Source: an uncultured Oscillospiraceae bacterium | GTDB taxonomy: Bacteria; Bacillota; Clostridia; Oscillospirales; Oscillospiraceae | Length of the DNA stretch: 34,255 bases | Direction: 5' to 3' | Assembly (NCBI GenBank): GCA_947632175.1 | Contig: CANROC010000026.1 | Span: 1-34,255, forward strand | In this document: positions 6,189 through 23,920 of the stretch, in pieces | Numbering within the stretch: position 1 is the stretch's first letter | Layout of the letters: each line of letters opens with the position of its first letter | Position numbers and translations under genes: made by a program | The notes under the pieces: generated by a model | What the model was told of the DNA's origin: nothing | The model's database searches: none | The model's input: only the letters and a program-made list of their open reading frames with translations

Positions 6189-9100
6189 TCACTTGACTAT
6201 GTACTCGACAAGCCGCTCCATGATGGTCGCTACCTCGGCCCTGGTCGCCGTAGCTTCGGGGACGAGGGCATTGTTGCCCTTGCCCTGAACGATACCATTG
6301 GCGACGGCCCACTCCATGGCGTCCTCAGCCCAGCTTGCCACATCGCCTGAATCGTTGAAATCAGCAAGGCTTGTGGTATCGCCGGTATCCATGCCGAGGG
6401 CTTGGACATACCGATAGATCATCGTGACCATCTCCTGACGGGTCACGTTGTTGACCGGGGCGAAGATGCCGGGGGCCGTGCCCTCAATGACGTGGTTGAC
6501 GCTGGCCCACTCCACAGCGTTGGTGTAGTAGACATTGTTGGGTACGTCGGTGAAGTCTGTGCCGCCGTCTGCCTCAACGCTGCTTTCAAGCCGCCAGAGA
6601 ACGGTGGCAAGGTCGGCGCGGGTCATGTTGGCATTGGGTGAAAACTCCGTGGCGCTGGTCCCGACAAACAGCTCATGGCTGGAAACGAAGCTCACGGAGG
6701 AAGCAAACCATTCACCGTGAACGTCCTCGAAATTCTTGCTGTTGTTGACGACCTTGACCGTTGCGCAGCCGTCCAACACCACATAGGTCTTGCCGTTCTC
6801 AACGGTGGATTTGGGGATGATCGTCTCGGTGCCGTCAGCGTTCACCGCAACAGCGACCTCGCCGAATTTGAGGTCGAGCGCCGCCTTGATGCCCGCACCG
6901 TTCACCTTTTTGCCGTCCACAGCGACATCTACGGAAACAGCACCGCTTTTCTTTTCAGTAGTGACGGTGAGGTCGCCTTCGCCTATCTCCGCAAGCACCG
7001 CATTGGGAATAGTCACATCGGCGGCGGAGGTTTCCACACGGAGTGCCGCGTCTGTTTTCTCCACAATGTCGTTGACGGTCCCACCGGGGATAGTGACCTC
7101 CGACACGGAGGCGCTTTCGCTCACCTTCGGCGCGACTACCACGGTGTCGCTGTTATGCTCCACGGCCTGCTTGACGATCTCATCGCCAACCTCATCGGTG
7201 ATCGTGGTACTGGCCTTGCCATCCGCCAGCGTAGCCTCCGGCCTTGCGGTGGTTTGCGTGGTGATCTCACTCTCGACCGTTACATTGTCTGTTGAGACAA
7301 CGGGGTCTGTGGGCGTGCTGGGCTGTGCGCTGCCTCCGCCGCCTCCGCTGCTTATGACGGAGTATCTGGCAAATACGTTCATACTTGCGTTCACGACGGT
7401 GTTCGCGTTGACAGTATTACCGCTGCCGTCCTCCCAACGGGTAAATCTGTATCCCGGATGCTCGGGAGGTGTGGGCATCGTGCCGATGGACGCGCCCTTG
7501 TCCACAGTCCGGCGCTCAATAATTGTGCTGGATTCGTTGCCGTCTCTAAAGGTAACTGTATAGCTGACCTGGGGCTCCGGCTCCTGCTCGTTGGGGTCTT
7601 TAACATGAATGACGAAATAGGTTTCCAGAGGATTCCCCGAATCCGCGTCACGGTTCTTCAGCATCACGCCGATGTAGGCGTAGCCGGAAGCCAGGGCGGT
7701 GACATTGCCGTCCTTGTCCACTGTCGCCACTTCGGGGTTGTAGGAGGTCCAGACGAGCTCTTTGTCCTTATCCTGTGAGGGTATCGGGTCAAGGGCAACT
7801 TTGAGTGTGTCTGAATCGTCCTTTTCCATCTCGATCATGTGCCCTTCACGGCCGCCCTCGCTTGTACCCACATCAATGGTCCTCGCGGTGGTGGGAAGTG
7901 TTATAACGGCAAATCTGAGTGAGCCGTAAGGGTTGCCCTGCATGGCGTTTGCCGTGGCCGTGATGTACGCCACACCGGGTTCTTTGGCCGTGAAGGTTGC
8001 GCCGGTTTCCGTATATTTCAGCTCGCCCTCAACGCCGCTTTCGTGAGCCCAGATGAAGGGTCCGTACAATCCATCGGGGCGGGTGTACTCATGTACCTCG
8101 CGGTCACTGCCCGGATTATCCTCATCCACCACGCCGTCAGCGCGGATGATCATCTCGCTGGCGCTGCCGGAGGGACTGTACGGTATCGAGATATGACCGG
8201 TCGTAGGATCGTACTCAAACGCCTTCGTCCATGTGTTGAACTGCTCGATCTCGTTGCCATCGCCGGTGTAGCGGGTAAAGAGACGAATATGGTCGGGAAG
8301 AGCATACCCTTCTTCATTGATGAGATAGCCCTCCCATTTGCTGTCCACTCCGACAAAGGTCGGCCCGTCCAGCTTGAGGCCCGTGGCCTCCGTTGTGGGG
8401 TTTTTCGTGCTGGGGCTGGTAGCTCCTTCAGCCGTATAGAGGTGCACGGGGATGGTGTTATGGGCGTTGCTGTCGCGGTATCTGGCGACAAGCGTGGCCG
8501 TCTCGCCCTCTTGCACATATATCGTCTGCTCGCCGTCAAGGGACGTGCTGGAGAGGAGGCCGTCTACACTGTTATCCTCGTACAGGTCCTTCCAGTCAAA
8601 CTCCATCGTTCTCTGGCAGCCGCCAGAGACAGAGCCATCGAGGTTCCTTGTGCCGCCCAGAGTGACTGTCAGGATACCGCCGCCGCTCAGATCCCCGGAC
8701 ACGATATGATTGCCGAGGGAATCGACCTTTATGGAGGCGTAGAGGTAGATCATACCCGTCATGGCGTCCGTGGTGTACTGGGCCACGTCGATGAGGGCCG
8801 TTTCACCGTATGTGTCGGCAGTACCGTCGTTTTCTTTTACCGACCAACTCACCAGGAGCCCGTCCGTACCTCCAAGGAGGACATTGGCCGGGGCCACATT
8901 CTGAATTTTGACGATAAGAGCTCCATCAGGACTCAGTCCGTTAAAGGTTCCCAGAGAGAGGTCGAAGCTCTCGACCTGAGTGGGCCGCTCACGAACAGCT
9001 ATGACCACCTTCTCCATCGCGCCGTTGCCGTTTTTGACGGTAATGACCGTCTGGCCCTCGGCGATCGCCTCTACATGGCCGCTTTTCTGGGTGACGGTGG

Positions 9101-12100
9101 CCACGCCGGGATCTTCACTCGTAAATTCAAGCTCGCCTGTTGCGGAGTTGTCGATCACGCTGAAATCGAAGGTGTCACCCACATACATAAGGCCGGAGCT
9201 GGGAGTCACGGTCATGCCGGACTCAGGCTCGGTGCCGTCGGTGCTGACGCGGGTAACGAAGTCGCCCTCGTTTCCGGCGTAGTCCATGGCCTGAATGAGC
9301 AGGCCGCCGGTCCACTCGAACTCAAATTCCCATCCCGTCCCCTCGTAGGGGTTGTTGATCGTGACATCGGTCACATCCGCCACAAAGGTCCACTCCTGAA
9401 CGGCGGCGTCATAGATCATCTGAGAGAATATGGCGCTGTTGTACGCGAAGTCAACGTCCTGTTCGCCGCTGTTCACATCCGTTCGGGTGGCCTGGGGAAT
9501 GACCTCCACGCCGGCCAGCGCCGCATTGTCGGTGACGGTTCCGGTGATATACCGTCTGCCGTTGTCCGTGAAGCTGGATATAACGCCGTCCTTCAGGGTC
9601 GGGCGGCTCTTGTCGATGAGGATGTTAAACTCGATGATGTCCCCATCCATATTCATCTCATGGTCATTGAAGGTCGGCCACGTTTCAGGCTTTTCAAGGT
9701 CAATGTCCCAATAGTTTGTTACCTCCCGCCCGCTGAAGGTGGTGGTGCCCAGCGCCGAGTAGTCGCCCTCGCCGAAGCCGGCGATCTTAAAGGTGACGTT
9801 CGTCCCGTTGGGGATGGGGTCGCCTCTGCCGGTAAAGGTCCCGTTGGGACGGGCCGCGCCCATATTGGTTCCGTCCCAACTCTCCGTCATATACATGGCG
9901 GACATGGGCACCGGCGTACCGTAGTCGCCGGAGTACAGCGTCTTGGGCAGGAAGGGCTCCACATCGCGATAGTAGAGCTCACCTGTCACGGCGTTCCGAG
10001 CCTCCAGCACGATCACGCGAGTGTCTCTTAACTGATAGAGAAGGAAGTCGTTGACGCCCGACACAAGGCCATTGGGCGAGATAGCGATGTTCTCCTCGTG
10101 GTAGATCTCCTGGTCAGTCTCGGAGTGCTCATCGTAGGGGTTCTGGCCCAGGTTGATGAAGCCGTAGCCGTTGTAGAAGCCCACGACAGAGTTGGCCCAT
10201 GTGTTTTCATTGTTCCAAAGGCTGCCGTCCGTGGTTTCGAGCCAGGTGTGCGCGTCAAAGATGGCGGGAGCCGTCCAGTCGCCAAGGTATCCCAGGAAGG
10301 GGAGGCCGATGTTGGGGTGGCCCTCGCTTTCAAGAATGACGAAGCCCTCGACGTAAATGCCGTTGGGGAACATATCTCTAAGCTCAGCGATCTCCTGTTC
10401 CGTGAGCTTGATGTCCACATGGACGCTCTGCGTACCGTTCTCACTGACTGTGACGGGGCCGATAGGAATTTCTCTCAAGATGCGGTCGGAGTCCAGCATC
10501 ACATCGCGCTCTTTGCTGCCCTCAACGGCGGAGTTTGCCGCCTTGCCGGTTTCCGGGACCATGACAACGATGTTGCCTGAGTAGGTCACAGGACTGTTCG
10601 TGATGTTGTGGATAATGAAGTCGCCTTCAAACTCACCGGTCCATTCATAGTCGTCGCTGAACTCCAGCTTGCCCACAAGCTGGTCGTCTACGGTGATGTA
10701 GGCCGGAGTGGTCACGGCGTTGCCCACATTCGCCAGACCAGCGCCCTGATAACGGGGGGAGTAATAGGCTTTGCCCTCAGTCTGAGGAACAGCGGTGCTG
10801 ACAAGGAGGGCGTTGGTGATCTCGTCCTCCATATTGAACTTTTCGTCTATCTCACCGTTGAGAATACTGTTTCGCACATACTGGCGCACCAGCGCGGCCA
10901 TACCTGTCATATGGGGCGCGGCCATGGACGTACCGCTCATCATGGAGTAGCCGCCCACGTAGTCCGTGTAGGTGCCCACCTTGCTGTCATAGGGGTATGT
11001 ATAATCGAATACGGAGGACCAGATGTTGCCGCCAGGGGCGGTGATGTCAGGCTTGAGCTCCAAACCGGGGCCGGCGCCCCAGGAGCTGAAGGAGCTCATC
11101 TTGCCGCCTTCGGCCTCATCGTCCACAAGTTTGTCCTCCTGCTCCACCTCAGTGAGGAACGCGCCGCCGTTTTCCGCAGCCTTCCGCATGGCCTCGCCGG
11201 TCTTGCCGGAGACGAACGCGGAGGTCAGCGCCGTGCCCTCAACGCTCATGGCTATGAGGCTGTCGCTGTTGGGGTCGGAGTCGTAGATGAACACGGCCAG
11301 AACGCCGCCGTCGTGACGATTGCCGTCCTCGTCGGTGTAGCTCCATGCGTACTGCATAGCGTTGTTGATCTTGTCCACAAAGGACAAAAGCTCGCCGTTC
11401 TTCTCGTTATCGCCGCCGCGCTTGACAAGGGCGATACCTGTCTTGCCCTCATTTCCCTGCGAGCCCTGCTGGAGGAATCCGGCGTTTTCAAAATCTGATG
11501 TGTTGCCGATGCCGGCGGGGATGATGGGCACACCGCCTTCCTCTTCAAATCGCGCGATCATCTCAGGGGAGAACAGATACCGCACGGACTCATAGAATGG
11601 GTCGTTGAAGCCCGCGCCATAGGTCGTTCCCTTGCTGTCCGCCCAATCCAGATAGCTCAGAGCCGTGACGTGGTTGTTGATGGAGGCCACAGCCATATTG
11701 GAGCTGTAAATGGCCGGGGAGCTCATCATGGAAGTCTCCGGATCGGTAGTCAGGTTGTGGCTGTCGTAGTTGGTGTTGGTGGTGGAGTTGCCGCTGTTGC
11801 CGGCGGAGGTCATAAGAATGACACCGGCCGCCTCCAGGTCATGGTAATACTCCATGGTGCCGCTCTCATCTTCCTCGAAGCCGTTATCTGAGCCGTAGCT
11901 CATGTTGATAACGTCCGCGCCCAAAATAAGAGCGTCCTCCAGCGCGTAGGCGAAGCTCAGCTCGGAGGCGCCGGAGCCGGAGTCGTCGAACACCTTCATC
12001 ATCAAAAGCTGCGCGTCCGGGGCGATGCCGGAGAATTTGACCTCGCCCTCCTCCGTCTTTGCATAGCCGAGAATCGTGCCGGAGACGTGTGTGCCGTGGT

Positions 12101-13151
12101 CGCTGCCGTTATTGCCGGGGTACACGTTCAGGTCGCCGTAGGCCAGCTCGTAGGTTTCCGGGTCGATGGTCCCCGCGTAGTCGAAAGCATAGGGAACCTT
12201 CAAATTCTTATAGAAGCCGGTGGTGGGGATCTGTCCTTTGATAAGTTTCTTTGTCGTTACGTCGAGATGCTCGATTGCGGCTTTGATCTCATCCTCGCTC
12301 CACTCGACAAAGCCGCTCGGATCGGTGCTCTTAAAGGAATTTTCGGTAAACGCCTCATGGGTGTGACGGATCTTTGTAATGTTCGTGCCGAGCTGGCCTT
12401 TATGGGGGTTGGGCTCCATTTTGCCCGTAGAAGCGTCATAACGCTCATCGCTCGTGTCGATCTCATTCGGATCCCAGTAAGTGCTGTACTGGAGGTCAAG
12501 TCCCGTATCCAGCACGGCCACGACCATGCCCTTGCCGGTCCAGCCCTCGTTCCATGCCTCTTGTAGGCCAATCATATCGTAGCTGTGGCTCTCGTACTCT
12601 CCGGTGCCGAGGCTGGTCCCCACGGCCACGGGGTCAGGGGCGGCAAAAACATGGGACTCATACGCCTGGTCTACACCTTCAAGCATACGGATATCGTCCA
12701 GGTCGCCGTATCTCACCTTGACAAAGAAGCCGTTGAACAGTGTGACCATCTGTGCCACGGGAGTAAGTCCCGCGTCGCCGGTGATGCCCCGGATTGCCTC
12801 CAGAACCGGCTCCTGCGCCGCCATAAGCTCCGCGTCCCGGCCTTCATCAAAGGCGTCCTGGAAGAACTTCGCTCTGGAAGCTCCGTCGCCGCTACCCTGG
12901 GCCTCAATAAAGAGGTCGATAAGGGAGGGCGCGGTCAGAGTAACGACCGCCAGTATATCCTCATTTTCATCGTGTCTCGCTGTACCGCGTGTCTCGCCGG
13001 TACTCTCAACGGTTTCAGGAGGGTCAATTTCCTCCGCTGGAAGCTGGGTGTAATCTTTCCCAGTCTCCGATGAGGCTCCGGCAGCCAGCGCAGTCGGCAT
13101 AAGTCCAATGACCATGCACAACGCCAGCATCAGTGCCAGGATTTTCTTCAT
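6189..13151 (-). CDS. Giant SLH-anchored S8 subtilisin-like protease
   Basis: A 2320-residue secreted protease. The signal peptide is MKKILALMLALCMVIGLMPT with cleavage near residue 23. A propeptide-like region (about 60-170) precedes the S8 domain: Asp215 in VAVLDTGLD, His352 in SDHGTHVSG, oxyanion Asn452 in TSAGNSG, and Ser742 in SGTSMAAPHM. A PA-like insert lies between about 520 and 680, as in lactocepin/C5a-peptidase types. The long C-terminal stalk has Ig-like (BIG2) modules near 1360-1430 and 1800-1900, an InlB-type repeat around 1930-2000, and a Gly-rich linker. The last 190 or so residues form three SLH domains that should bind secondary wall polymers. The catalytic triad is complete, so an active cell-wall protease is likely; the substrate is unknown. 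The start follows AAAGGAAG. It lies 99 nt downstream of the other SLH gene on the same strand. Confidence 0.9.
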   Translation of the reverse strand: MKKILALMLALCMVIGLMPTALAAGASSETGKDYTQLPAEEIDPPETVESTGETRGTARHDENEDILAVVTLTAPSLIDLFIEAQGSGDGASRAKFFQDAFDEGRDAELMAAQEPVLEAIRGITGDAGLTPVAQMVTLFNGFFVKVRYGDLDDIRMLEGVDQAYESHVFAAPDPVAVGTSLGTGEYESHSYDMIGLQEAWNEGWTGKGMVVAVLDTGLDLQYSTYWDPNEIDTSDERYDASTGKMEPNPHKGQLGTNITKIRHTHEAFTENSFKSTDPSGFVEWSEDEIKAAIEHLDVTTKKLIKGQIPTTGFYKNLKVPYAFDYAGTIDPETYELAYGDLNVYPGNNGSDHGTHVSGTILGYAKTEEGEVKFSGIAPDAQLLMMKVFDDSGSGASELSFAYALEDALILGADVINMSYGSDNGFEEDESGTMEYYHDLEAAGVILMTSAGNSGNSTTNTNYDSHNLTTDPETSMMSSPAIYSSNMAVASINNHVTALSYLDWADSKGTTYGAGFNDPFYESVRYLFSPEMIARFEEEGGVPIIPAGIGNTSDFENAGFLQQGSQGNEGKTGIALVKRGGDNEKNGELLSFVDKINNAMQYAWSYTDEDGNRHDGGVLAVFIYDSDPNSDSLIAMSVEGTALTSAFVSGKTGEAMRKAAENGGAFLTEVEQEDKLVDDEAEGGKMSSFSSWGAGPGLELKPDITAPGGNIWSSVFDYTYPYDSKVGTYTDYVGGYSMMSGTSMAAPHMTGMAALVRQYVRNSILNGEIDEKFNMEDEITNALLVSTAVPQTEGKAYYSPRYQGAGLANVGNAVTTPAYITVDDQLVGKLEFSDDYEWTGEFEGDFIIHNITNSPVTYSGNIVVMVPETGKAANSAVEGSKERDVMLDSDRILREIPIGPVTVSENGTQSVHVDIKLTEQEIAELRDMFPNGIYVEGFVILESEGHPNIGLPFLGYLGDWTAPAIFDAHTWLETTDGSLWNNENTWANSVVGFYNGYGFINLGQNPYDEHSETDQEIYHEENIAISPNGLVSGVNDFLLYQLRDTRVIVLEARNAVTGELYYRDVEPFLPKTLYSGDYGTPVPMSAMYMTESWDGTNMGAARPNGTFTGRGDPIPNGTNVTFKIAGFGEGDYSALGTTTFSGREVTNYWDIDLEKPETWPTFNDHEMNMDGDIIEFNILIDKSRPTLKDGVISSFTDNGRRYITGTVTDNAALAGVEVIPQATRTDVNSGEQDVDFAYNSAIFSQMIYDAAVQEWTFVADVTDVTINNPYEGTGWEFEFEWTGGLLIQAMDYAGNEGDFVTRVSTDGTEPESGMTVTPSSGLMYVGDTFDFSVIDNSATGELEFTSEDPGVATVTQKSGHVEAIAEGQTVITVKNGNGAMEKVVIAVRERPTQVESFDLSLGTFNGLSPDGALIVKIQNVAPANVLLGGTDGLLVSWSVKENDGTADTYGETALIDVAQYTTDAMTGMIYLYASIKVDSLGNHIVSGDLSGGGILTVTLGGTRNLDGSVSGGCQRTMEFDWKDLYEDNSVDGLLSSTSLDGEQTIYVQEGETATLVARYRDSNAHNTIPVHLYTAEGATSPSTKNPTTEATGLKLDGPTFVGVDSKWEGYLINEEGYALPDHIRLFTRYTGDGNEIEQFNTWTKAFEYDPTTGHISIPYSPSGSASEMIIRADGVVDEDNPGSDREVHEYTRPDGLYGPFIWAHESGVEGELKYTETGATFTAKEPGVAYITATANAMQGNPYGSLRFAVITLPTTARTIDVGTSEGGREGHMIEMEKDDSDTLKVALDPIPSQDKDKELVWTSYNPEVATVDKDGNVTALASGYAYIGVMLKNRDADSGNPLETYFVIHVKDPNEQEPEPQVSYTVTFRDGNESSTIIERRTVDKGASIGTMPTPPEHPGYRFTRWEDGSGNTVNANTVVNASMNVFARYSVISSGGGGGSAQPSTPTDPVVSTDNVTVESEITTQTTARPEATLADGKASTTITDEVGDEIVKQAVEHNSDTVVVAPKVSESASVSEVTIPGGTVNDIVEKTDAALRVETSAADVTIPNAVLAEIGEGDLTVTTEKKSGAVSVDVAVDGKKVNGAGIKAALDLKFGEVAVAVNADGTETIIPKSTVENGKTYVVLDGCATVKVVNNSKNFEDVHGEWFASSVSFVSSHELFVGTSATEFSPNANMTRADLATVLWRLESSVEADGGTDFTDVPNNVYYTNAVEWASVNHVIEGTAPGIFAPVNNVTRQEMVTMIYRYVQALGMDTGDTTSLADFNDSGDVASWAEDAMEWAVANGIVQGKGNNALVPEATATRAEVATIMERLVEYIVK

Positions 13152-13250: not shown

Positions 13251-16200
13251 TCAGAATTCCTCTACTCGTTCCATTATGCGTGTGAGGATGGTCGCCAGCT
13301 CCGCACGGGTCGCGGTCGCCCTGGGAGCGAGTTTGTCATCTCCTCTGCCCACCATGATGCCAGTCTCGACAGCCCATTCGATGGCGTCCACGGCCCAACT
13401 GTCAACTTCATTCGCGTCGGCAAATGCCGCTGTTTGATTACCGCTGACCTTGGGGGAGCCCACAAACCGATAGAGCATAGTGACGATTTCCTCACGGGTT
13501 AGGGCCTCGAAGGGCCTCGTCCCATCGGACACGCCCTCTCTGACGGCCCACTCCATGCCGGGGACATACCATGCCTTACCGGGCTCATCCAGACCGGGCG
13601 CATGGTTGCGGCGGGCCAGAATGGTCATGAGCATCGCACGGGTTGCAGTCTCGTCAGGGGAGAAGGTGCGCTCACCTGTGCCGTTCATCATGCCGAAGTT
13701 GGAGACAACAGCCACGTTATCGTGATACCATGCCTTATCCGCAACGTCAATGTACCAATCGGAGGCGTCCATAAACTCCGCCGTGACGTTGACGCCGCCG
13801 GCGGGCATCTCAAAGCTGAATGTTCCGTCGCCGTTGTTCTTGACTTCAATGGCATTGCCATTCTTGTCGGTGACAACGACCTTGCTCGTGATGTAGCCGC
13901 TGTCAGGATTGGGCAGGACCGTGACGGTATCGCCGGAGGCCGCCTTGTCCACATCGGTGTCCACACCGCCGTGGGCGGGACGCTGCGCGGGAGTCGGGGC
14001 ATCAACCGGGTTCGTGGCGCTGACGGTGCCAGTGCCGGAGCCGGTGCCGGTTCCGCTGCCAGAGCCGGGGTTGCTGGGGATGTAACCGCCGCCGCCCGTG
14101 CCGGAGTTCCTGGGTTTCCACTGAGCGACCAGCTCAATGGAGATGATCGTCTCGTTAGCCGTGGCCTGATTGACCGTGATCTGATAGCCCGGCTGATAGA
14201 TCTCATCGTGTGGATCGCTGAACGTCTTGCCGTCACGCACACCCTTCACGGTGTACTTCCAACCGGCAAAGGTGGGATTGACGCTGGTGCCGACGTAATC
14301 ACAAGACGGGAAGGTGTATGTCTTGCTCGTCTCGTTCCACGCGATCTTCACCTCATCGGAGCTCATGGAGCCCGTTCCGCCGCCGCCACGGAAGTAAACC
14401 TTGACTACGGTGTCGGGGATGTTCTTCCACACGGCCTTGACGGTGATCTTGCCGTCCCTGATGTCGCTCTGCTTTATCGTGTAGATCGAGTTGGGGGACA
14501 CCTGCTTGCCGTTGATGGTCCAATAGCTGAACTGCATCCCCTCCGGAGCCTCAAAGTTGCACTCACCGACCTCCACGGTCCATTCGGCGTTTTCGTTGTC
14601 CTTTTCGACCCTGTGGATCAGCGTTGGCATATCGTTTTCGCCCGCCTCGTCTCCGCCGTTGGCATCAAACTCAAGCTGCCATGTCTCCACCTTGTCCTTG
14701 GTGGTCCATGTCGCCGTGATGGTCATGCTCTCGGTGGGCCGGAAGGCTTCGGTCTGTCCGGCATCGGCCTCCTCGTTCACGATGAAGTCCGTGCCGAAGG
14801 TCCAGTTGAGGAACTCCACGTTTTCGGGTATGTTCCAACCAAACGTACTGGCTATCTCAGCCTTGGTTGTGGGCAGGGTAACTGTACGCACCTGAGAGTC
14901 CTTGGACAGGACTTGCGCGGAGTCGCTCCCGGTCACTTCGTTGCCGGGGCCAGGGCTGACGGTGTAGTGGATGTCCACCAGCGGGATAGCCTCCCACTGG
15001 GCAATGAAGGTAACGTCGTTGGGATACTCGGCAACAAATTCGGACGTAGTAACATTCGTGTTATAAAGTTTCCCGGAGTTGTCGCCCTCAATCTTCCACC
15101 CGGTAAACTTCCAGCCCTCATCGGGCTCAATGCCGCACTCATTGGCATCGGGGAGCATCAGGAGAGCCGGGTTATAATTCCCGCTCACATCCTGATTGTA
15201 ATACAGGCTATGGGTATATGGTCCGCCGGTGCCGTGATCACCCGGCATAAAGACTGCGGTTATCTCGTAGTCCGTTGAATCCTGCACCCAATCGGCGTAG
15301 ATGACCATTTCCAGTTCTTTGTCGCCCGTTTCGGAGTCATACCTGACCGTGATAGCGCCGTCCTCGCCCATCTCGATGGGATTACCCAACTCGTCTACCC
15401 ATCTGCTGAAGTGGTAGTTATCCCTCACATAATAGGTCTTGGGGATGTAGAGACTGAGCTCCTCATTTAACACCGCCTTGGCGGTGACGGTCATGGGGTG
15501 GTTAATGACAGGCGTATGCCAAAGGTCCGCCGGGGGAGGATCGTCCACTGGCCCATCGTAAACGACATCTTCCGCGCCGGGCATGAGAGTGACGGTCAGA
15601 GAATATGTATCCGCCACCTTCCAACGCGCCTCGATAATGGGTTCGGGGTTGTTCTTATTGGGTGTGAAGGGGTATGTTCCGTCAGTATGCTTGTTCAGCT
15701 TGGTGTAGGAGTTCGTATCCTCCACATGATTTCCGCTGGCGTCCTGATTCACATACCATCCATCGAAGGTGAGCCACTTGGGGATGGTCCAGCCGAAGGG
15801 GTTGCCCTCGGAGCCGTCGAAGCCGTGGCCATTGCCCTCTTCGCCGTCACCGGGGTCGGTACTCTCGACCTGCTGACTGTCCGTGGGGACCATCTTTGCA
15901 TCTGCGGGGAGGTTGTAGGTCGCAATAGCATTGTCGCTGCTGCCGGTCCTTGGCAGGGCCGTGTTGTAATCAGGATTGTTTGTCTGTGTGTTCTCCTGCT
16001 TCACGAAATCGTAACCGACAACATATATATCCCCGTTGTTGGACTTTATCGTCACAGGGACGGTGCCGTAGACGGTCCGCACCGTGACTTCCACATCGCC
16101 GGTGATCTTTTGTCCCGGAATCGTCAGCTTGCCGGTGATCTTGTTGTAGCTGTACTCGGACGATTTCAGGATAACTTTCCTGACGGACACGGTGATGTTG

Positions 16201-19200
16201 TCCGGCAGCGCGTATCCGAAGCCGGGGATCAGCTCCAGATTCAGCGTTTCTTTCTCCGAAATCGTCTCGATCCCGTTGGTAGTAAGGCCGTTATCGGCAT
16301 TCACTGTCACCGTGAAGGTCCGCTGTTCCGCGATGGTGACTTTTACGGTGTAGTCATTCTCGCCGATCTTGAATTTATAGGTCTTTGTGCCCTCGCCGGT
16401 GGCCTCCTGGAATGTGGCTGTCGCGCCGTTCTTAGTGGTGATGGTGATGCCGTTGCCGTCCGTCTCGCCGGGGAGCACGGAGCCGTAGGGAAGCGTAATG
16501 CTCCACTCCCTCTCTCCCGTGTGGGAGGCCGTGTAGCCGGTAACTCTCACGCTCGTCACCACATCATCGGCCTCGGTGCACTTGGCGCTTACGGTCACGT
16601 TATCCGTCACCGCGAAGGAATATTCCCCGTTGTTCATCAGCGCGGAAACATCTTCGCCGCCCACCGTCAGGCTCGATACATCGCAGCCCGAATTGGGCTT
16701 CACCGTCACGGTGACAGTCTCTCCGGCGTTGTATTCGTTTGCAGCCTTTTGCGGAGAGAGCGTGATCGTTCCGTTTGTGCACTCACCAACTGTCACGGTG
16801 AACGTCGGGATTTCCTCGATCACCAGTTGGAAATCGTGGTCATAGAAGGAGATAAGCTGCCCGTAGTTATCGCCGAAATCGGTGTTTGTCAGATCCGCGA
16901 GGCTCTGCCCCGGCTCGATCTTTGTTTCACCGTCCATCAACCAATACCATTTCCACGAGGTGGGGATCGTCCAGCCGAGGGCATCGGGCGAGGCTACGTT
17001 CACAAATCCGACCTGAGCGCTGCCATCTTCCGTTTTTTCCACAACGCCCGTACCGTAGGAAGTCATGGAAATATTCTCGCCCACAAAGCCGCCGTTCTCA
17101 CCTGTCGGCACCTTGAAATTATGGGTGATCGGAACGCCGCCGCCATCAAGCACGATGCAGAATTTTTCCGTTTTCTTCCGGCCGACTGAGCTGCTGTTCC
17201 CCCATGTCACCTCAAACCAATACTCGCGGTTCGGCTTGGTGGGGTCTACCGCAAAATAAAACGTGTTGTTGGCGTCTTTATATGCGGATTTGTCCATATA
17301 GTTATAATTGGTATTGAGCCCGATACAGCTCGAAGTCACCATCACGCCGTCCCCATCCGAAACCTTGAGCGTGACCATGCGCGTATTGTACCAAATTATA
17401 TCTGCGGGCTCCATAACGAGGCCGAGATAATACCCAAAGGTCGGTGAGGTGGGGTTTTGTTCGGATTCTGACGGCTTGACACTGGCAAACATATGGAGAT
17501 TTTGCGCCGTAAATGTGTACTTGACATATTCGTCCTCCGTGCCCTTGTTGATGATCTCCGGCTCCGAGAGGGAATAATTTTCGACCATGCGGTGCTGGGA
17601 ATCTGCGTCGGAATTGTCGTACTTGTACTTCCCGGTATAAGCATAAGCGTTCACCGAAGGGGCATCATAAAGCGTGCCCACACGCAGATTCGTGATAAAG
17701 TCCGCCTGTTCAAATGTGGCGTTGACCGTCACGTTTGACGCCGGCATGATAAAGGTGATCAGAGAAATGCCGCTCCTGTCAAAGTTGACCGCGCTTCTCT
17801 CATTACCTGTCACGTAGATATAGATTGATTTCAGCTCATACCCTCGATTAGGGGATATGGTCAGTGTGACAGTATCTCCCTCGTAGGCTTCCTTTGGGTT
17901 AGGAATTATACTTCCGTTTGTTATTGAGGAAGAAATGTTTACAGTATATTTTTGCCGCTGCTTAAATTTTACTGTTACGGTGACGTTGCCTGCGGGCATG
18001 ACAAAGGAACGGGTATCTCCGTCACCACTGACATCGACACTCGTATTATCGTTGTATGTAGCTGTTACACTCTCAATAACATATCCGTCTGCGGGGGATA
18101 TCTTTAATTGGACTTCAGCGCCCTCTCGAACATCTTTATTCGGAGTTGCCGTTACGCTTCCGCCCACATTCCCATCTATAATTATAGTAACCGCATACGC
18201 CTGTTCATAAGTTATAGTAATAGTGACCTCATCATCTGGCATAATGAAGGTCCACTCATTCTCAGCACCGGCGACCGGCGTGAGATCAAGACTTTCTCCA
18301 CCGTTGTGAGTTGCCACGACCGATTTCACTGCATATCCATCATTAGGTGTGACTTTTACGGTTACTTCAACACCGGAAGCCTCATTAGAGGGAACTTCTA
18401 CGCTTCCATTATTGGGTTCGTTTATGACAACAATATTAGCCCCGGAGGCTTTGGAAAATTTAGGGGTTAAACTATAACTACCCGCCGTAGAAGGACCCGT
18501 AAAGACGTTCGTATCATTGTTAAATACACTTGAATTGGAAGATTCGTATCCATCAAAATTCTGTCCAGATTGATTTGCTTGGATAAAATCTTTAGGGGTG
18601 ATTTCAGAGCCGTTCGCCACATAAAGGAACGGTGCTCCATTAGTTGCTTTTGGGAAATTATCACTTTTTGAGCTTGAATAAGTCCATGCATCGCCTAATT
18701 CAAATTTCACCAGCGAGCATTGCAAGACACTACTTGCATCAATATTTCCCCCATTGTGAGTTATTCTTGCTGCAACAGGTCTAGTTGTTCCGCCGGTAAA
18801 AACCGTACTCTTTGCTTGGAATACACTTGGGGTATTACTCCCAATCACGCCGGCAATCCAAAAAACGTGCCCACCGGCGGTATATTGATCATATTTATCA
18901 CCGCAATCACTCTTATACACTGAAACCGCATTATTTGCATAAATTTGTGCCGAAGTTGTAGCAGCTGCGGTCCTCGCAAACTTAATTGTATCTCCATCTG
19001 ATAAGTCGCCATCTACAACCAACCATGTAATATTCCAGCAACCATCAGGTATAGTAATTGATACGTCAGAAAGGCCAGCCTGAGACAAGGCGGCGGTAAT
19101 CGCCGCAATTGCCGAGTCGCTATAAGGGGAAAAGCCAAACCCAGCAATTGTGGGATTACCGTCAGATGTTGTACTTTCAGCGCTTAAGGCGTTCACGCCC

Positions 19201-19265
19201 CAGCGCGGGGCCGAAGCCCCGACTGGCCTTATGCGAAAAAATCTGCTTGCGCGGAGAAGTCCCAA
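13251..19265 (-). CDS. C-terminal part of a giant SLH surface protein (-1 frame continuation)
   Basis: A 2004-codon frame with no signal peptide and no ribosome site at its first usable start (TTG at 19265). It overlaps the end of the upstream InlB-repeat gene in the -1 frame. Order: junction residues 1-30; an Asn/Ser-rich beta-type region to about 245 that I do not recognise; three 'bacterial repeat' modules of the form GGSVTATPN...GYVIESVTATYN to about 530; unassigned beta modules; several InlB/Listeria-Bacteroides repeats (FDANGG, GWKFTGWKI, ITVKAVWK types); a Gly/Ser-rich linker; and three C-terminal SLH domains. It is most easily read as the second half of one wall-anchored protein made with the 19229-21229 frame by -1 frameshifting, or as a gene split by an indel. 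The encoding DNA is AT-rich between about 17830 and 19190, unlike the rest. Confidence 0.75.
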   Translation of the reverse strand: MGLLRASRFFRIRPVGASAPRWGVNALSAESTTSDGNPTIAGFGFSPYSDSAIAAITAALSQAGLSDVSITIPDGCWNITWLVVDGDLSDGDTIKFARTAAATTSAQIYANNAVSVYKSDCGDKYDQYTAGGHVFWIAGVIGSNTPSVFQAKSTVFTGGTTRPVAARITHNGGNIDASSVLQCSLVKFELGDAWTYSSSKSDNFPKATNGAPFLYVANGSEITPKDFIQANQSGQNFDGYESSNSSVFNNDTNVFTGPSTAGSYSLTPKFSKASGANIVVINEPNNGSVEVPSNEASGVEVTVKVTPNDGYAVKSVVATHNGGESLDLTPVAGAENEWTFIMPDDEVTITITYEQAYAVTIIIDGNVGGSVTATPNKDVREGAEVQLKISPADGYVIESVTATYNDNTSVDVSGDGDTRSFVMPAGNVTVTVKFKQRQKYTVNISSSITNGSIIPNPKEAYEGDTVTLTISPNRGYELKSIYIYVTGNERSAVNFDRSGISLITFIMPASNVTVNATFEQADFITNLRVGTLYDAPSVNAYAYTGKYKYDNSDADSQHRMVENYSLSEPEIINKGTEDEYVKYTFTAQNLHMFASVKPSESEQNPTSPTFGYYLGLVMEPADIIWYNTRMVTLKVSDGDGVMVTSSCIGLNTNYNYMDKSAYKDANNTFYFAVDPTKPNREYWFEVTWGNSSSVGRKKTEKFCIVLDGGGVPITHNFKVPTGENGGFVGENISMTSYGTGVVEKTEDGSAQVGFVNVASPDALGWTIPTSWKWYWLMDGETKIEPGQSLADLTNTDFGDNYGQLISFYDHDFQLVIEEIPTFTVTVGECTNGTITLSPQKAANEYNAGETVTVTVKPNSGCDVSSLTVGGEDVSALMNNGEYSFAVTDNVTVSAKCTEADDVVTSVRVTGYTASHTGEREWSITLPYGSVLPGETDGNGITITTKNGATATFQEATGEGTKTYKFKIGENDYTVKVTIAEQRTFTVTVNADNGLTTNGIETISEKETLNLELIPGFGYALPDNITVSVRKVILKSSEYSYNKITGKLTIPGQKITGDVEVTVRTVYGTVPVTIKSNNGDIYVVGYDFVKQENTQTNNPDYNTALPRTGSSDNAIATYNLPADAKMVPTDSQQVESTDPGDGEEGNGHGFDGSEGNPFGWTIPKWLTFDGWYVNQDASGNHVEDTNSYTKLNKHTDGTYPFTPNKNNPEPIIEARWKVADTYSLTVTLMPGAEDVVYDGPVDDPPPADLWHTPVINHPMTVTAKAVLNEELSLYIPKTYYVRDNYHFSRWVDELGNPIEMGEDGAITVRYDSETGDKELEMVIYADWVQDSTDYEITAVFMPGDHGTGGPYTHSLYYNQDVSGNYNPALLMLPDANECGIEPDEGWKFTGWKIEGDNSGKLYNTNVTTSEFVAEYPNDVTFIAQWEAIPLVDIHYTVSPGPGNEVTGSDSAQVLSKDSQVRTVTLPTTKAEIASTFGWNIPENVEFLNWTFGTDFIVNEEADAGQTEAFRPTESMTITATWTTKDKVETWQLEFDANGGDEAGENDMPTLIHRVEKDNENAEWTVEVGECNFEAPEGMQFSYWTINGKQVSPNSIYTIKQSDIRDGKITVKAVWKNIPDTVVKVYFRGGGGTGSMSSDEVKIAWNETSKTYTFPSCDYVGTSVNPTFAGWKYTVKGVRDGKTFSDPHDEIYQPGYQITVNQATANETIISIELVAQWKPRNSGTGGGGYIPSNPGSGSGTGTGSGTGTVSATNPVDAPTPAQRPAHGGVDTDVDKAASGDTVTVLPNPDSGYITSKVVVTDKNGNAIEVKNNGDGTFSFEMPAGGVNVTAEFMDASDWYIDVADKAWYHDNVAVVSNFGMMNGTGERTFSPDETATRAMLMTILARRNHAPGLDEPGKAWYVPGMEWAVREGVSDGTRPFEALTREEIVTMLYRFVGSPKVSGNQTAAFADANEVDSWAVDAIEWAVETGIMVGRGDDKLAPRATATRAELATILTRIMERVEEF
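19200..19241 (-). promoter_or_regulatory. Candidate -1 programmed ribosomal frameshift signal
   Basis: On the - strand the end of the upstream frame reads GAT TTT TTC GCA TAA. T_TTT_TTC (19241-19235) is a perfect X_XXY_YYZ slippery heptamer in the correct phase. Eight nt after it a stem begins: CCAG (19226-19223) pairs with CTGG (19203-19200), and CGGGGC (19221-19216) with GCCCCG (19211-19206), capped by a UUCG tetraloop. Slipping back by one base avoids the TAA and enters the 2004-codon frame exactly. Confidence 0.55.
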
Positions 19266-21229
19266 TTAGCTACAAGTGTTATACTCGCGCTAACATCAAT
19301 CGGGTCACCGGGATAATAATCCACCTCGCCATCGTCAATTGTCCAATAGACAAATTCCATGCCTTCAGGTGCAGTGAAAGTGCACTCAGGAAGTATGTAA
19401 GTCGCGGTGGGAGTGGTGCTCTCAATAACGTCGGGTGCCATTTCGCCGGAGCCGCCATTGGCATCGAAAGACACCATGTAATAATATGTGATGGGCCTCC
19501 AGTGAGCGGTCACAGTGACATCAGAAGAAATGTTCACGACGTCACGCGGCTGATACGTGCCCTCAAACCCGCTGACGGTCCAATAGGCGAACTCCATGCC
19601 CGCAGGAGCGGTAAATTCATTGGAGGGCAGGACATAGGGATAGCTGGTCCTCTCCGTGTAGACGACCACCGGCTCCATCTCTCCGGTTCCTCCGCCCGCG
19701 TCAAAGGAGATCGTGAACTGCGTGGCAGTACCGTAGTCCCACATAGCCACGATAGTCATATCGGTGGCTATCGCAAAAGTATTGCTCAGATACACCGATG
19801 TGTCATTGGCATTGACCCAACCGAGAAGAACGGCATCCTCGGGGATGGTCCAGCCGAGGTCCTCACGAACCGCCGCGGCGCTTGCGGGAAGCGTGACGGT
19901 GGACCCCACAGCATAAGTTTTATAAACCATCCTGTTGTCATCGCTGCTCAGAGTGCCCGCCTCAAAGCCGATGGTGTAGGGACCTGTGCCCTCATCGCGC
20001 CACGTTGCGGTGAATGTCATATCGCTGTTGGCGGTCAGAACTTCTCCGTTGTGATAAACCGTTCCGTCGCTTCCAAGCCATCCGGCAAACTCCTTGCCCT
20101 CGGGCATGGTTTCAAACACGGCGTTGTATCTGATTGTCTCGCCTTCTTCATCTACAACAATGCGTTCATCGGTAACATTGGGGAGGTCAACATTGTACTC
20201 CACGTTGCGGAGCACCGTGGCAACGAGGTTGCCGTTTACAGTCTGATACCCGGTAACGTCGTCGCGGAATGTGGCTCCCTCGCCGGGATAGATCGTTATC
20301 TGCCAATACTCCCTTGCAGGCTCATCCTTTTCCCAGATAACGTAGAGATTCGTGTCCTCGTTCAGCACGATGGGCATGGGAAGGCCCTCTGTGGCGTCCT
20401 CATCGGTATTCCACCCGATGCTGTGATACCCTACCATGGCGAAGGGGTTCTCGCTGGGTCCGTAGTATTCGGAGCCCTTTGTAAACTCACCGCCGCTGAC
20501 AGGCTCGCCGGGAACGGCAACGCCGTCCGCCTTGCCGGGATACAGCGTCACAGTGACGGTTTCAGCGGTTTCGCCGCTCCAAATAGCGGTGTAGGTTTCT
20601 CCGTCATGGGGTTCAAAGGAGATGGTGCGCCCGGTGAGCTCGCCAGTCTCAGGGTCGGTGCCCTCAGGAATAGCGGTGCCATTGTTGTAGGTCCAATGGT
20701 CGAACTCGATACCGCTGGGGATGGTCCAGCCAAACTCGTACTCGATGCCATCATCCGTAGTGGGCAGAGTGATCTCACCGACATACTGCGAAGGGATGGG
20801 GCCCCTGGTGATATCCGGGTTGGTGTCCTCGGTCTTTATGGTCCCGGCAGAAATGATGTATGTCACGGTGGTCTGCTCGATGTAGTTGGCGAGGAACGTC
20901 ACGTCACCGTCAATAATGCGCGAAACGTCATAGCCAATATCATACATGGTATTGCTTTCATCGTCCTTGACGGACCAGCCCTGAAACGCCAAATTCTCAG
21001 GGTCGCTCCTGAAGCCAAGGGTGGCGGGGTCGGGAAGCAGGAAAGCTTCACCCTCGGTATAAACAGCCGTGGGATATCCGCCCTCCCCGGTGTAAACGCA
21101 GTTTTCGCCGGGTTCAAAGGTCACGGTGTAGTCAGCGTTCTCCGCAGCCATGGCGCTCATGGGGAGCAGAGAGCAAACCATCATCAGCGCCAAAACAACG
21201 CTCATGATCTTGTTGAACTTCTTTGACAT
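19229..21229 (-). CDS. Secreted InlB-repeat surface protein, N-terminal part
   Basis: 666 residues from ATG at 21229, chosen because GGAGG lies 8 nt upstream; the frame stays open to 21280 without another good site. The signal peptide MSKKFNKIMSVVLALMMVCS is followed by PMSAMAAE, with cleavage near AMA-A. The rest is a string of InlB/Listeria-Bacteroides type repeats, recognisable by FDAGGGTGEM or FDANGGSGEM, MEFAYWTV and VTAHW-like ends. These usually form extended beta-grasp stalks or adhesins. By itself this product has no wall anchor and would be released; joined in the -1 frame at 19235 it gains three SLH domains (about 2659 residues in total). It is the first gene of the - strand surface block, behind a long leader. 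Confidence 0.8.
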   Translation of the reverse strand: MSKKFNKIMSVVLALMMVCSLLPMSAMAAENADYTVTFEPGENCVYTGEGGYPTAVYTEGEAFLLPDPATLGFRSDPENLAFQGWSVKDDESNTMYDIGYDVSRIIDGDVTFLANYIEQTTVTYIISAGTIKTEDTNPDITRGPIPSQYVGEITLPTTDDGIEYEFGWTIPSGIEFDHWTYNNGTAIPEGTDPETGELTGRTISFEPHDGETYTAIWSGETAETVTVTLYPGKADGVAVPGEPVSGGEFTKGSEYYGPSENPFAMVGYHSIGWNTDEDATEGLPMPIVLNEDTNLYVIWEKDEPAREYWQITIYPGEGATFRDDVTGYQTVNGNLVATVLRNVEYNVDLPNVTDERIVVDEEGETIRYNAVFETMPEGKEFAGWLGSDGTVYHNGEVLTANSDMTFTATWRDEGTGPYTIGFEAGTLSSDDNRMVYKTYAVGSTVTLPASAAAVREDLGWTIPEDAVLLGWVNANDTSVYLSNTFAIATDMTIVAMWDYGTATQFTISFDAGGGTGEMEPVVVYTERTSYPYVLPSNEFTAPAGMEFAYWTVSGFEGTYQPRDVVNISSDVTVTAHWRPITYYYMVSFDANGGSGEMAPDVIESTTPTATYILPECTFTAPEGMEFVYWTIDDGEVDYYPGDPIDVSASITLVANWDFSAQADFFA

Positions 21230-21242
21230 GGTATTTTCCTCC

Positions 21243-21720
21243 TTAATGTAATAAAGTATTTGCCCAAAAAACAGGTTCACGAACAGGTTTTGTCGGGGGG
21301 ATGCACCCCCGGCTTGGCCCTGTCAGGCCATCCGCATTGTGTTTTCATGGACCGCCGAATCGAGACTCCGGCCGCCCGTGAATGTTGAGGGTTCACGGCG
21401 GGAGAGCCCGCTGGTCCTCGCACATAATTCCGCTTTCCATGAACTCACGCCTCCCTTCCAAAATCACGCGGTCACTTTGGTGGGTTTTGTACCTTCTTTC
21501 GCTGGGGATATATTGCTCGGTCCCGATGGGGAGGACCCCTTCGGTCCCGGTCAACACGTAAAAAACAGGCGCTCTACGACTTCCTTTCCGCACCGTCGCA
21601 GAACGTCCTCGTTTATGACAGCTCCGCTTTTCGGGTTGACCGTTCAGCGCGGGAATCAAAACATTAGAGCTTGGCCCGTCCGTTTCCTCCTTTCACAGGC
21701 CAATAATCACATAATTTCGC
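21243..21720 (-). ncRNA. Long hairpin-rich 5' leader (candidate structured RNA)
   Basis: About 480 nt upstream of the surface gene with no convincing gene. Read on the - strand it holds many GC stems: GGACC/GGTCC around 21541 with a competing CGGGACCGA direct repeat, GCGGG-CTCT-CCCGC near 21400-21413, a 10-bp stem with one bulge (CCGCCGTGAA with TTCACGGGCGG, 21371-21401), GGCC/GGCC near 21315-21328 and a G5/C5 stem near 21296-21310. Two CCTGTTTTTT tracts (near 21566 and 21272) could be termination points. The density of stems and a possible 15-codon leader peptide suggest regulation of the downstream giant gene. No known riboswitch class was recognised. Confidence 0.4.
21393..21440 (-). CDS. 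Possible 15-residue leader peptide
   Basis: MESGIMCEDQRALPP, preceded by a strong GGGAGG (21450-21455) at 9-nt spacing. It lies inside the structured leader and its stop overlaps the 21400 hairpin region, about 165 nt before the surface-protein start. Position fits an attenuation leader peptide, but its composition gives no clue to a sensed amino acid. It could also be chance. Confidence 0.25.
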   Translation of the reverse strand: MESGIMCEDQRALPP

Positions 21721-21963
21721 TTATGCCGTAAAACCGTTTTTCGTCCTGCAAATTATTCCAGAAACAGCCCTAAATCTCCGCAAATAAGGCCGCATTGAGC
21801 TAAGACCGCCGAAAGTTTAATTTTCGCGGCCTGCAATTTTGTGTATTTTTTTACATTTTGGCTATTTACTTTTTGGCTTGGCGGTGGTAGAATTACGCAT
21901 ATTGGGAAATCATATCCTGATTGCGCTTAATCGGTATGTACGAGAGTATATGCAGAAGCGAAA
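21721..21963. other. AT-rich region between recombinase and leader
   Basis: No gene seen. It holds an inverted repeat AGGCCGC/GCGGCCT (21787-21793 with 21826-21832) and, on the - strand, two similar direct elements: TTGCAGGCCGCGAAAA near 21819-21836 and TTGCAGGACGAAAAA near 21740-21754. The promoter of the surface gene probably lies here, but I could not place -35 and -10 boxes with confidence. Confidence 0.4.
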
Positions 21964-22791
21964 TTATGTCCTTAATCTCACAAGCCCCAACCCGTCGAGG
22001 ACTCTGGCGTGTTCCGCGCCCGTGGAAATGAGGTATATCCTCGTCGTGTCCACGCTGGAGTGGCCCAGCACATCCGCAAGCATTGCGATGTTCTTCGTGG
22101 CCCGGTAGAACACCCGCGCGAACAGGTGCCGGAGATTGTGAGGGAACACTTTGCGAGGGTCCACCCTCGCTTTTTTGCACACCGCTTTCATCTCCGCCCA
22201 TATCTGCCTCCGGGTGATGGGCTTGCCGCTTCGGGTGAGGAATATCTCGCCCGAGGCGATTTTTTGTTTCTTCGCGTATTTTCTGAGCTTCCGGCACAGC
22301 TTCCCGGGTATGAGGATGGTCCTGATCTTCCCCTTCATCCGTATATCCGCCCTCCCCACGCTGACGGCCTCCGCCGTGATGTAGGAAAGCTCGCTGACCC
22401 GGATGCCCGTGGCGCATATCGTCTCCATGATGAGCCCGATGCGCCGGGGGGCAGCGTCGATGAGCCGCTCATATTCCGCTTGGCTCAGCTCCCGTTCCTC
22501 GTCCCGGAAAACTCTCTGCTGGACCTGGAGGTGCTTGACCTTGCACTCCGGCCGCCCGATGAACTCCAGAAATCGGTTCACTCCCGACACCATGGAATTG
22601 ACGGAGCTGGCCGTCAGCTTCGTGAGCAGCCCGTCCCTCCACGCCGCCACACTCTCCCGCGTAAGCTCCCGCCCCGCGTTCTCATTCAAAAATCTTTGCA
22701 CATCCCTTGCGTATTTCTCAATAGTCGCACCGCTTCTTTCTTCTCTTTCAAGCTCCGCCAAAAAGCTCATAACCGCAGCCTCGTTTTTCAT
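21964..22791 (-). CDS. Tyrosine recombinase (XerC/D-like)
   Basis: A complete 275-residue site-specific recombinase. Residues about 1-85 form a SAM-like core-binding domain (MKNEAAVMSFLAELEREE...). The catalytic domain has Arg131 in CATGIRVSEL, Lys154 in the RMKGK turn, His218-x-x-Arg221 in PHNLRHLFA, His244 in LGHSSVDTT and Tyr253 in TRIYL, so all active residues are present. Small stand-alone recombinases of this type either integrate elements or invert nearby DNA. This one lies upstream of the surface-protein block on the same strand, so control of that block by inversion is possible but not shown. Start after GGAGGAA at 7-nt spacing. Confidence 0.88.
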   Translation of the reverse strand: MKNEAAVMSFLAELEREERSGATIEKYARDVQRFLNENAGRELTRESVAAWRDGLLTKLTASSVNSMVSGVNRFLEFIGRPECKVKHLQVQQRVFRDEERELSQAEYERLIDAAPRRIGLIMETICATGIRVSELSYITAEAVSVGRADIRMKGKIRTILIPGKLCRKLRKYAKKQKIASGEIFLTRSGKPITRRQIWAEMKAVCKKARVDPRKVFPHNLRHLFARVFYRATKNIAMLADVLGHSSVDTTRIYLISTGAEHARVLDGLGLVRLRT

Positions 22792-22824
22792 CGCTGTTCC
22801 TCCAGTTGTTTAAAAGGTACAGTT

Positions 22825-22830
22825 ATTATA
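22825..22830 (-). promoter_or_regulatory. -10 box of the tyrosine recombinase gene
   Basis: A perfect TATAAT on the - strand, about 34 nt upstream of the start codon. A clear -35 box is not seen; CGTAAC 17 nt upstream is a poor match. Confidence 0.5.
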
Positions 22831-23131
22831 CCCGGATAGCGTGAAGTTACGGATCGAGCCGGAGGTCTTGTTTTCCTCCTGATGTGTTACGATTCAACCG
22901 AGTTTTCCATAAAATTCTAATTTTTTCTTATCCTCTCCTTTTGTTCGACAAGTTTTTCAGTTTTCAGGGTCTATACTGGGTCGCATTACACAAACCGGCT
23001 GGATTGGACAAAATAGAATTGCGGTTTGCAAGTGCTTTTCCGACTATTTTTGATAGCTGAGGTGATAGCTTTCCAAGCTCCGTTTAGCTTGGCAGTCCTT
23101 TATCCAGACAGCGCCATTGGGCTTCTGACCA

Positions 23132-23171
23132 GCCGATTTTACCCATGGGTAGGGTAAATTCGGCGCTTTTT
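23132..23171 (+). terminator. Terminator/attenuator 1 upstream of the sigma-like gene
   Basis: A 13-bp stem with one mismatch (23132-23144 with 23152-23164), then GCTTTTTTG. An alternative pairing of AGCGCC (23110-23115) with GGCGCT (23162-23167) would disrupt the base of this stem, as in an anti-terminator arrangement. Confidence 0.6.
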
Positions 23172-23308
23172 TGTTTTTGAACTGAATAGAGACGCCTGAG
23201 TTGCAATAGGGCGAAGGATCGCGCTTTAGCGGTTTTCATGGTTACATGGAAACTGTGACAAAGTAAGTACCCTTTGACCCCTGTGCCCGAAAACGGGCGT
23301 CCCCAACC

Positions 23309-23345
23309 GGTCTGCGTGTGCTTCTTGTCACGCAGACCTTTTTTA
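23309..23345 (+). terminator. Terminator/attenuator 2 upstream of the sigma-like gene
   Basis: A perfect 10-bp stem GGTCTGCGTG/CACGCAGACC (23309-23318 with 23329-23338) followed by TTTTTTAT. It lies 122 nt before the start codon at 23468. Confidence 0.7.
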
Positions 23346-23467
23346 TCCTTCGCTCCGCGTCTCCCGGAGAAAGGATAAAAAATGGTCGCCCAGTGGCAGT
23401 GTTACATAGCGAAGTACCCGTAGTCTCCCTCGTTTTCCCAAAACGAAAACGAAAGGAGATTACATAG

Positions 23468-23920
23468 GTGAAACCGCCAAAACCCCCTGCGGACTTTGAT
23501 TACGACCTTTGGACCACAAAGGACGGGAAACGGATGGTCCGCGTCAAGTCCACCGGCGAGACGTGCGAGGTGGACGCCGACACATTCCGCCTCCTTCGCG
23601 CGGAGGAAAAGGCCCTCCGGCGCTCTGTCGCGGCAAACGACACCGCGCCGCTGTCAACCGACCTGCGCCCCGTCGAGGTCGAGGATGCGGAGAGCGGCTG
23701 GCTCATCGACCCCACGAATTTAGAGGACTCCGTAACGGGCAAGCTCGCGCTGTCCCTGTTCATCGCGGCGCTCACGCCGTACCAGCGTGACATATTCGAG
23801 AAATGTATGCTGGACGGTATGACCCTCACAGATTACAGCAAGCGCCGGGGCGTTGATGTTACCGCCATCCGAAACGCCAAGAGGCTGATACAGAAAAAAG
23901 CGAAAAAATTCCTTGATTGA
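23468..23920 (+). CDS. Small sigma-70-like / HTH regulator
   Basis: A 150-residue protein starting at a GTG after AAAGGAGAT (23452-23460). The N-terminal half (KPPADFDYDLWTTKDGKRM) is typical of sigma-like proteins on Clostridia mobile elements. The C-terminal 60 residues (LTPYQRDIFEKCMLDGMTLT, then RRGVDVTAIRNAKRLIQ) look like sigma region 4, a helix-turn-helix that contacts the -35 element. No region 2 is seen, so it may act as an accessory regulator rather than a complete sigma factor. It lies behind two attenuator-like hairpins, which points to conditional expression. Confidence 0.7.
   Translation: MKPPKPPADFDYDLWTTKDGKRMVRVKSTGETCEVDADTFRLLRAEEKALRRSVAANDTAPLSTDLRPVEVEDAESGWLIDPTNLEDSVTGKLALSLFIAALTPYQRDIFEKCMLDGMTLTDYSKRRGVDVTAIRNAKRLIQKKAKKFLD

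Follow-up and report, generated by a model that had tools for sequence, protein, structure and literature searches.

A giant SLH surface gene with a probably replaced front half behind a probable invertible promoter in an uncultured Oscillospiraceae bacterium

The locus described here, from an uncultured Oscillospiraceae bacterium, holds three large surface genes (P0001, P0002 and P0003, a presumed operon), together with a tyrosine recombinase gene and a probable promoter switch. The window, that is the whole stretch of DNA analysed (34,255 nt), is one entire contig (CANROC010000026.1) of a draft genome in 82 contigs (GCA_947632175.1), and the surface genes are on its minus strand. P0001 and P0002 meet at a frame break, which a sequence-only reading had taken for a -1 frameshift site joining a secretion signal to a wall anchor. 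The locus was compared with that of G032, a genome of the same genus and the only relative found with a syntenic locus. Its features are listed below, with signal peptides judged by eye here and throughout.

21964-22791, minus strand: tyrosine recombinase, 275 residues, XerA/XerC/XerD-like, reading toward the switch (Pfam Phage_integrase, E 4.9e-23)
21952-21974: inverted repeat arm of the switch, recombinase side, matching the G032 arm at 17 of 18 nt
21865-21893, plus strand: promoter-like site, oriented away from the surface genes, with TTTACT and TAGAAT spaced by 17 nt and a TG ahead of the second hexamer
21704-21726: inverted repeat arm of the switch, gene side, matching the G032 arm at 20 of 20 nt
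21230-21703, minus strand: leader, 474 nt from the switch to P0001, absent from G032 (100 nt there)
19229-21229, minus strand: P0001, 666 residues, ATG at 21229 and TAA at 19231-19229, with a signal peptide, InlB repeats and the Shine-Dalgarno sequence AAGGAGG
13251-19265, minus strand: P0002, SLH surface protein, 2004 residues from the TTG directly after a stop, without a start signal or signal peptide
6189-13151, minus strand: P0003, 2320 residues, a protease of subtilisin type carrying three SLH domains, second gene of the presumed operon

The G032 locus runs from a tyrosine recombinase through inverted repeats and an SLH protein (1998 residues) to a subtilisin-SLH protein (2311 residues), at 79%, 46% and 73% identity to the window for the three proteins respectively. 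No InlB-repeat gene lies ahead of the SLH gene there. That gene is complete, starting 100 nt past the switch arm with the ribosome site GAGGAGG and an apparent signal peptide, so the anchored protein needs no frameshift in G032. The homology of P0002 to it runs from about 19190 onward; the window retains only the last residues of the G032-type signal peptide before the mature part, the core of this peptide having been lost, and carries the leader and P0001 between switch and SLH gene. By this comparison the junction is an apparent lineage-specific fusion replacing the N-terminus of the SLH protein, and the G032 arrangement, seen in one genome, is presumably the ancestral state.

The leader has no counterparts in phages or plasmids, and is weakly matched in 3 of 399 other genomes of the family. 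Two of these matches cover the leader end with its ribosome site, while the third (L047) lies inside a gene that I take to encode a sugar kinase. With no phage or plasmid match and such weak family matches, a mobile origin of the leader was not retained.

The InlB-type repeats of P0001 (Flg_new) were detected as one stretch at E<=0.001 and four at E<=5. P0001 is also similar to the stretch of P0002 that immediately precedes the SLH domains (E 3e-16, with 24% identity over 594 columns), as would be expected of a truncated paralogue. None of the 33 other genomes of the genus matches P0001 at E 1e-20. Relatives at E 1e-12 occur in 21 of the 399 other family genomes, and among the matches listed only residues 386-663 are covered; 11 of these loci were translated, and in the roughly half of them that were readable SLH-like domains close one (L099) but are missing from the rest over the stretch examined, which is uninformative on the origin of P0001.

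For P0002, one SLH stretch is found at E<=0.001 and three at E<=5, within the last 199 residues. Its 266-residue front occurs in its own genome and G032 only, among 34 genomes of the genus (its own included). A two-row alignment matched 117 of 400 family genomes at E 0.001, and among the matches listed all but its own genome cover only the repeat-like columns 187-346, while the front domain alone matched 1 of 394 genomes of the order, its own; G032 was evidently not drawn in either sample. Viral contigs gave no match to this N-terminal domain. The front domain (18450-19199, minus strand, 250 residues) matches nothing in Pfam up to E 5 or in NCBIfam. P0003 reaches 221 of 1400 bits, well under the cut-off, against the SGO_0316/SGO_0317 model of LPXTG-anchored serine peptidases.

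The two repeats of the switch are 23 nt long, 87% complementary and separated by 225 nt, making them the third longest of 54 such pairs in 12.5 kb. The arms are conserved in G032, whereas the DNA between them is mostly different, and the recombinase, which NCBIfam Xer-type models match under curated cut-offs, adjoins the switch in both genomes. The paired core is present in 2 of the 34 genus genomes only, namely these two. Lone arms with one mismatch were found in G023 and G030, with no partner repeat of at least 14 nt nearby, and one viral contig has a lone exact match to the arm within what is presumably a terminase gene.

The promoter-like site inside the segment has a counterpart in G032 (1281-1253, minus strand), with the same 17-nt spacing and TG before the second hexamer. 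Both lie on the recombinase side of the segment and are directed away from the surface genes. A scan gave two sites in the window against 0.7 expected from shuffles, and four in G032 against 1.0. Since such scans yield about one site by chance, it is the agreement of place and direction between the two genomes that provides a real argument for a promoter. Segment 21704-21974 is thus probably a promoter segment that can invert and, once inverted, would drive the surface operon; both assemblies would show it in the OFF orientation. This switch was absent from the sequence-only reading; if real, it would turn the whole operon ON or OFF. By eye, the leader also holds a partial third copy of the switch core (21421-21436, minus strand, 14 of 15 nt of AAGCGAAATTATGTG), which may be due to chance or be a further recombination site.

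Three features lie at the P0001/P0002 junction itself.

19235-19241, minus strand: slippery heptamer T_TTT_TTC, in phase with the P0001 frame
19200-19226, minus strand: hairpin 1, 11 bp with one bulged base and a cUUCGg loop, 8 nt after the heptamer
19180-19206, minus strand: hairpin 2, 27 nt, -15.7 kcal/mol, identical to hairpin 1 in dot-bracket shape

Much of what the sequence-only reading described here stood up. The heptamer is in phase at 19241-19235 on the minus strand, and the TAA of P0001 comes 3 nt past it; the 8-nt spacer and the 11-bp stem with its cUUCGg loop were both recovered. The upstream frame is a 666-residue protein with a signal peptide and InlB-type repeats, as had been described, and the -1 frame indeed continues for 1994 residues past the presumed slip, with no stop before its end and SLH domains at the C-terminus. 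P0002 has neither ribosome site nor signal peptide of its own, again as claimed. The proposal built on these elements, that they make up a frameshift site, fared less well: motif and hairpin are real and competent, but the SLH gene of G032 is complete, unfused and in no need of a frameshift. A comparison of the junction with homologous DNA, which had been suggested as a check, was run as far as possible and went against the proposal, the sole relative G032 having no fusion. No second genome with the P0001-P0002 junction was found among those searched.

Hairpin 1 folds at -19.7 kcal/mol (z -4.2, with 0 of 200 shuffles as low), and longer stretches around the junction fold more weakly (z -1.6, 12 of 200 shuffles as low, and z -2.1, 4 of 200). 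Hairpin 2, which had escaped the earlier description, overlaps hairpin 1 by 7 nt, and the two are mutually exclusive. In the portion of PMC4066793 drawn on here, U_UU.U_UU.C is named among the more efficient motifs in insertion sequence (IS) elements and is efficient in E. coli, and stimulatory structures usually begin 5-8 nt downstream of the motif. Motif and hairpin are thus chemically competent, and some slippage is to be expected if the sequence is correct, given a motif among the more efficient ones in E. coli and a hairpin at a suitable distance. None of five types of Shine-Dalgarno-like stimulator motif was found in the 30 nt upstream of the heptamer, and Rfam gave no match up to E 5 in 19000-23500.

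Several other candidates were considered at the junction and set aside. Internal starts for P0002 in the -1 frame, at TTG 19265 and GTG 19187, have no Shine-Dalgarno sequence or signal peptide by eye. Transcriptional slippage was not retained, T6 being shorter than the nine at which counter-selection of runs shows in many genomes, according to a passage of PMC1088944. A crossover by the recombinase was also considered; by eye the junction shares with the switch arm the short words TTTCGC and GCATAAG but no full site, and this was taken as chance. Hairpin 1 does not behave as a repeated element, as its exact 15-mer occurs once in its own genome and longer junction DNA is single-copy. With one mismatch allowed, the 14-mer core of hairpin 1 is found at three other places in the 20 stretches of its own genome and at one in the relative, and the 14-mer of hairpin 2 at two and two places respectively; two longer words linking the parts occur at the junction alone in the own and relative stretches searched. 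The paired overlapping hairpins (19180-19226, minus strand) may be a remnant of the event that made the fusion.

The chance of such an arrangement was estimated from 309 open reading frames (113,442 codons) in 20 stretches of the same genome, taking as the unit for heptamer frequency the 12 codons of the -1 overlap at the junction. In-phase X_XXY_YYZ heptamers of any kind occur at 0.047 per 12 codons and T6/A6 types at 0.0056, with 8 occurrences of T_TTT_TTC in total. Of 447 heptamers of any kind, 8 have an equally stable structure starting 5-9 nt further on; for T6/A6 heptamers the count is 1 of 53, and for random codon positions 5 of 400. On this strict measure the joint chance per frame break is about 8e-4 for any motif and about 1e-4 for T6/A6 types, figures which are limited by the fact that the junction was selected for looking like a frameshift site. 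Under a looser measure, covering 60 nt from 5 nt past the motif, 157 of 3000 random coding windows reach as good a fold, and so do 24 of the 308 stop-codon windows. Since indels favour homopolymers, the T run alone carries little weight.

The best explanation, to which I assign a rough probability of 0.6, is that a surface gene behind a promoter segment that probably inverts has been re-headed, and that no recoding signal has evolved at its junction. The starting point would have been a G032-like state of recombinase, switch, secreted SLH protein and secreted subtilisin-SLH protein. In the window lineage, a signal peptide and InlB module (P0001) with a long leader would then have been placed between the switch and the SLH gene, a gene now devoid of start, ribosome site and signal-peptide core. 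The coding parts join out of frame at the T6 run, with palindromic DNA behind. The frame break is most likely a by-product of this rearrangement, out of frame originally or made so by a later indel in the T run, real or artefactual. I infer that one or other of these causes is likelier than evolved frameshifting, and the GeneTack authors' statement that unclustered frame breaks are mostly indels or errors (PMC3711429, in part) is counted on the same side. With the sequence taken as it is, cells in the ON state would produce the InlB protein of 666 residues together with the subtilisin-SLH protein; production of P0002 would hinge on the junction, and some P0001-P0002 fusion protein may come from adventitious -1 slippage.

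Programmed -1 frameshifting on U_UUU_UUC, aided by the hairpin, would instead yield a fixed share of anchored protein of about 2659 residues, the rest being the free 666-residue form. It has in its favour the in-phase heptamer with a stop right behind it, the cUUCGg hairpin at the right distance, the low joint chance and the efficiency of the motif in E. coli. Yet the arrangement is missing from the only relative, there is no upstream Shine-Dalgarno-like stimulator, hairpin 2 competes with hairpin 1, homopolymers are also prone to indels and the looser folding controls are weak, so that I consider it unlikely. A variant with two layers of control, where inversion sets the operon ON and a new -1 frameshift splits the product into free and anchored forms, the overlapping hairpins tuning the ratio, is held to be quite improbable. 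It is doubtful, if deserving of more weight than these, that a sequencing or assembly indel in the T run has broken what is truly one continuous fused frame. The break does sit in a homopolymer, and a second one near 28972, in a homopolymer-containing stretch, is found on the same contig. A/T runs of 7 number 58 over 432 kb here and 100 over 420 kb in G032, for 301 and 307 runs of 6, which could reflect shortened runs or nothing. Six bases is, on the other hand, a short run for short-read errors. A control for frame breaks, comparing the open reading frames of 21 stretches of G032 with 21 of the present genome (window included), gave one apparent break in 36 comparable genes (47 kb) and none in 37 genes (45 kb) in the reverse direction. 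The single case, antisense to two adjacent similar genes, was dropped, leaving 0 of 36, and indels are thus rarer than about 1 per 16 kb (95%).

Two further alternatives rank lower. A chimeric contig, in which P0001 and P0002 are not truly adjacent, would fit a draft in 82 contigs and a junction found in no other genome searched; however, P0001 sits between the recombinase-switch and P0002-P0003 blocks, which are linked in G032, and no repeat of the junction exists elsewhere in the assembly to prompt a wrong join, making this very unlikely. Slipped-strand phase variation of the T run is the least probable of all. It would suit a surface protein within a probably phase-variable operon, and switching at a G10-G11 tract is known for bifidobacterial pilus genes (PMC9187656, in part), but the T6 run is shorter than such tracts and falls below the poly-AT minimum of 7 used in the relevant part of PMC3711429. 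Most of the remaining weight goes to a fusion made out of frame or a true indel. The confidences behind these gradings overlap among explanations and do not add up to one.

Some observations weigh against a re-headed gene without a recoding signal. A slippery motif and a hairpin at the right distance would rarely coincide by chance (about 1e-3 to 1e-4 per frame break). P0002 is open over some 2000 codons with recognisable SLH domains, which speaks against long decay, and the low indel background in the frame-break control speaks against an error. As a single relative is known, G032 could instead have lost the InlB part. Concerning the switch, weaker promoter-like sites do face the genes, one inside the G032 segment and one in the window (21972-21945, minus strand, partly in the arm and pointing toward P0001).

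If frameshifting does operate, the junction would be a -1 recoding site found in a bacterial surface gene rather than in a mobile element, and close to its birth at a fusion point. If it does not, the locus is an example of a giant surface protein acquiring a new front half beside a probable invertible promoter, where the recombinase and the second gene have kept 79% and 73% identity between the two genomes, against 46% for the first surface gene, which gains a new N-terminal part. In either case, the switch is a testable prediction of phase variation for uncultured Oscillospiraceae.

Elsewhere on the contig, genes for a helicase C-terminal domain, DUF3848/DUF3849 and a MobA/VirD2-type relaxase are found at 124-5984 (plus strand), and the contig may therefore belong to an integrated conjugative or mobilisable element. 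Three large serine recombinase genes follow one another at 27825-32692 (plus strand). The first of these is frame-broken near 28972 beside an A6 run. This second frame break, also reported by the sequence-only reading, is real in the sequence, as the C-terminal part of the first recombinase, read in another frame, aligns to the second. A pemK RNA (RF02913, 66.9 bits; 26974-27037, plus strand) lies directly upstream of a PemK/MazF-like toxin gene (27157-27579, plus strand), and is alone in reaching its Rfam threshold across the whole window.

In the literature, a term search of the gut inverton survey PMC11892184 gave no hit for SLH, S-layer, Oscillospir, InlB or surface protein, and the first 300,000 of the 475,107 characters of the recoding review PMC5009743 contain no adhesin, surface protein, S-layer or phase variation. 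A search on invertible promoters and Oscillospiraceae returned two resistome papers. Among the papers searched, none brings the SLH domain together with both DNA inversion and phase variation, none mentions S-layer homology alongside invertible, phase variation and recombinase, and none has frameshifting with the SLH domain and surface.

In the cwpV-RecV system of Clostridioides difficile, the promoter lies outside the inverted segment and the OFF state involves formation of a terminator, while recV lies away from the switch and the anchor domain is of another type. The window, in contrast, has a promoter-like site inside the segment, an adjacent recombinase and an SLH anchor. Both combine a large cell-wall protein, an Xer-type tyrosine recombinase and inverted repeats upstream of the start, these being 21 bp and 195 bp apart for cwpV, as given in the section of PMC2784873 used here, and 23 nt and 225 nt apart in the window. 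At the junction, the closest likeness is to the -1 frameshift genes of the IS1 and IS3 families, which have X_XXZ_ZZN in a frame overlap, U_UU.U_UU.C among the motifs listed and a hairpin at 5-8 nt (PMC4066793, in part), although the window gene is no transposase and its junction would come from a recent fusion. The pilus switch of Bifidobacterium breve is likewise a homopolymer-split surface gene in a gut bacterium, but with a G10-G11 tract (PMC9187656, from the part consulted) where the window has T6. The switch itself recalls fim of Escherichia coli, with a promoter between inverted repeats and a tyrosine recombinase gene close by (again from that section of PMC2784873); it differs in its single adjacent recombinase and in the operon it would control, that of giant SLH proteins, with inversion as the prediction.

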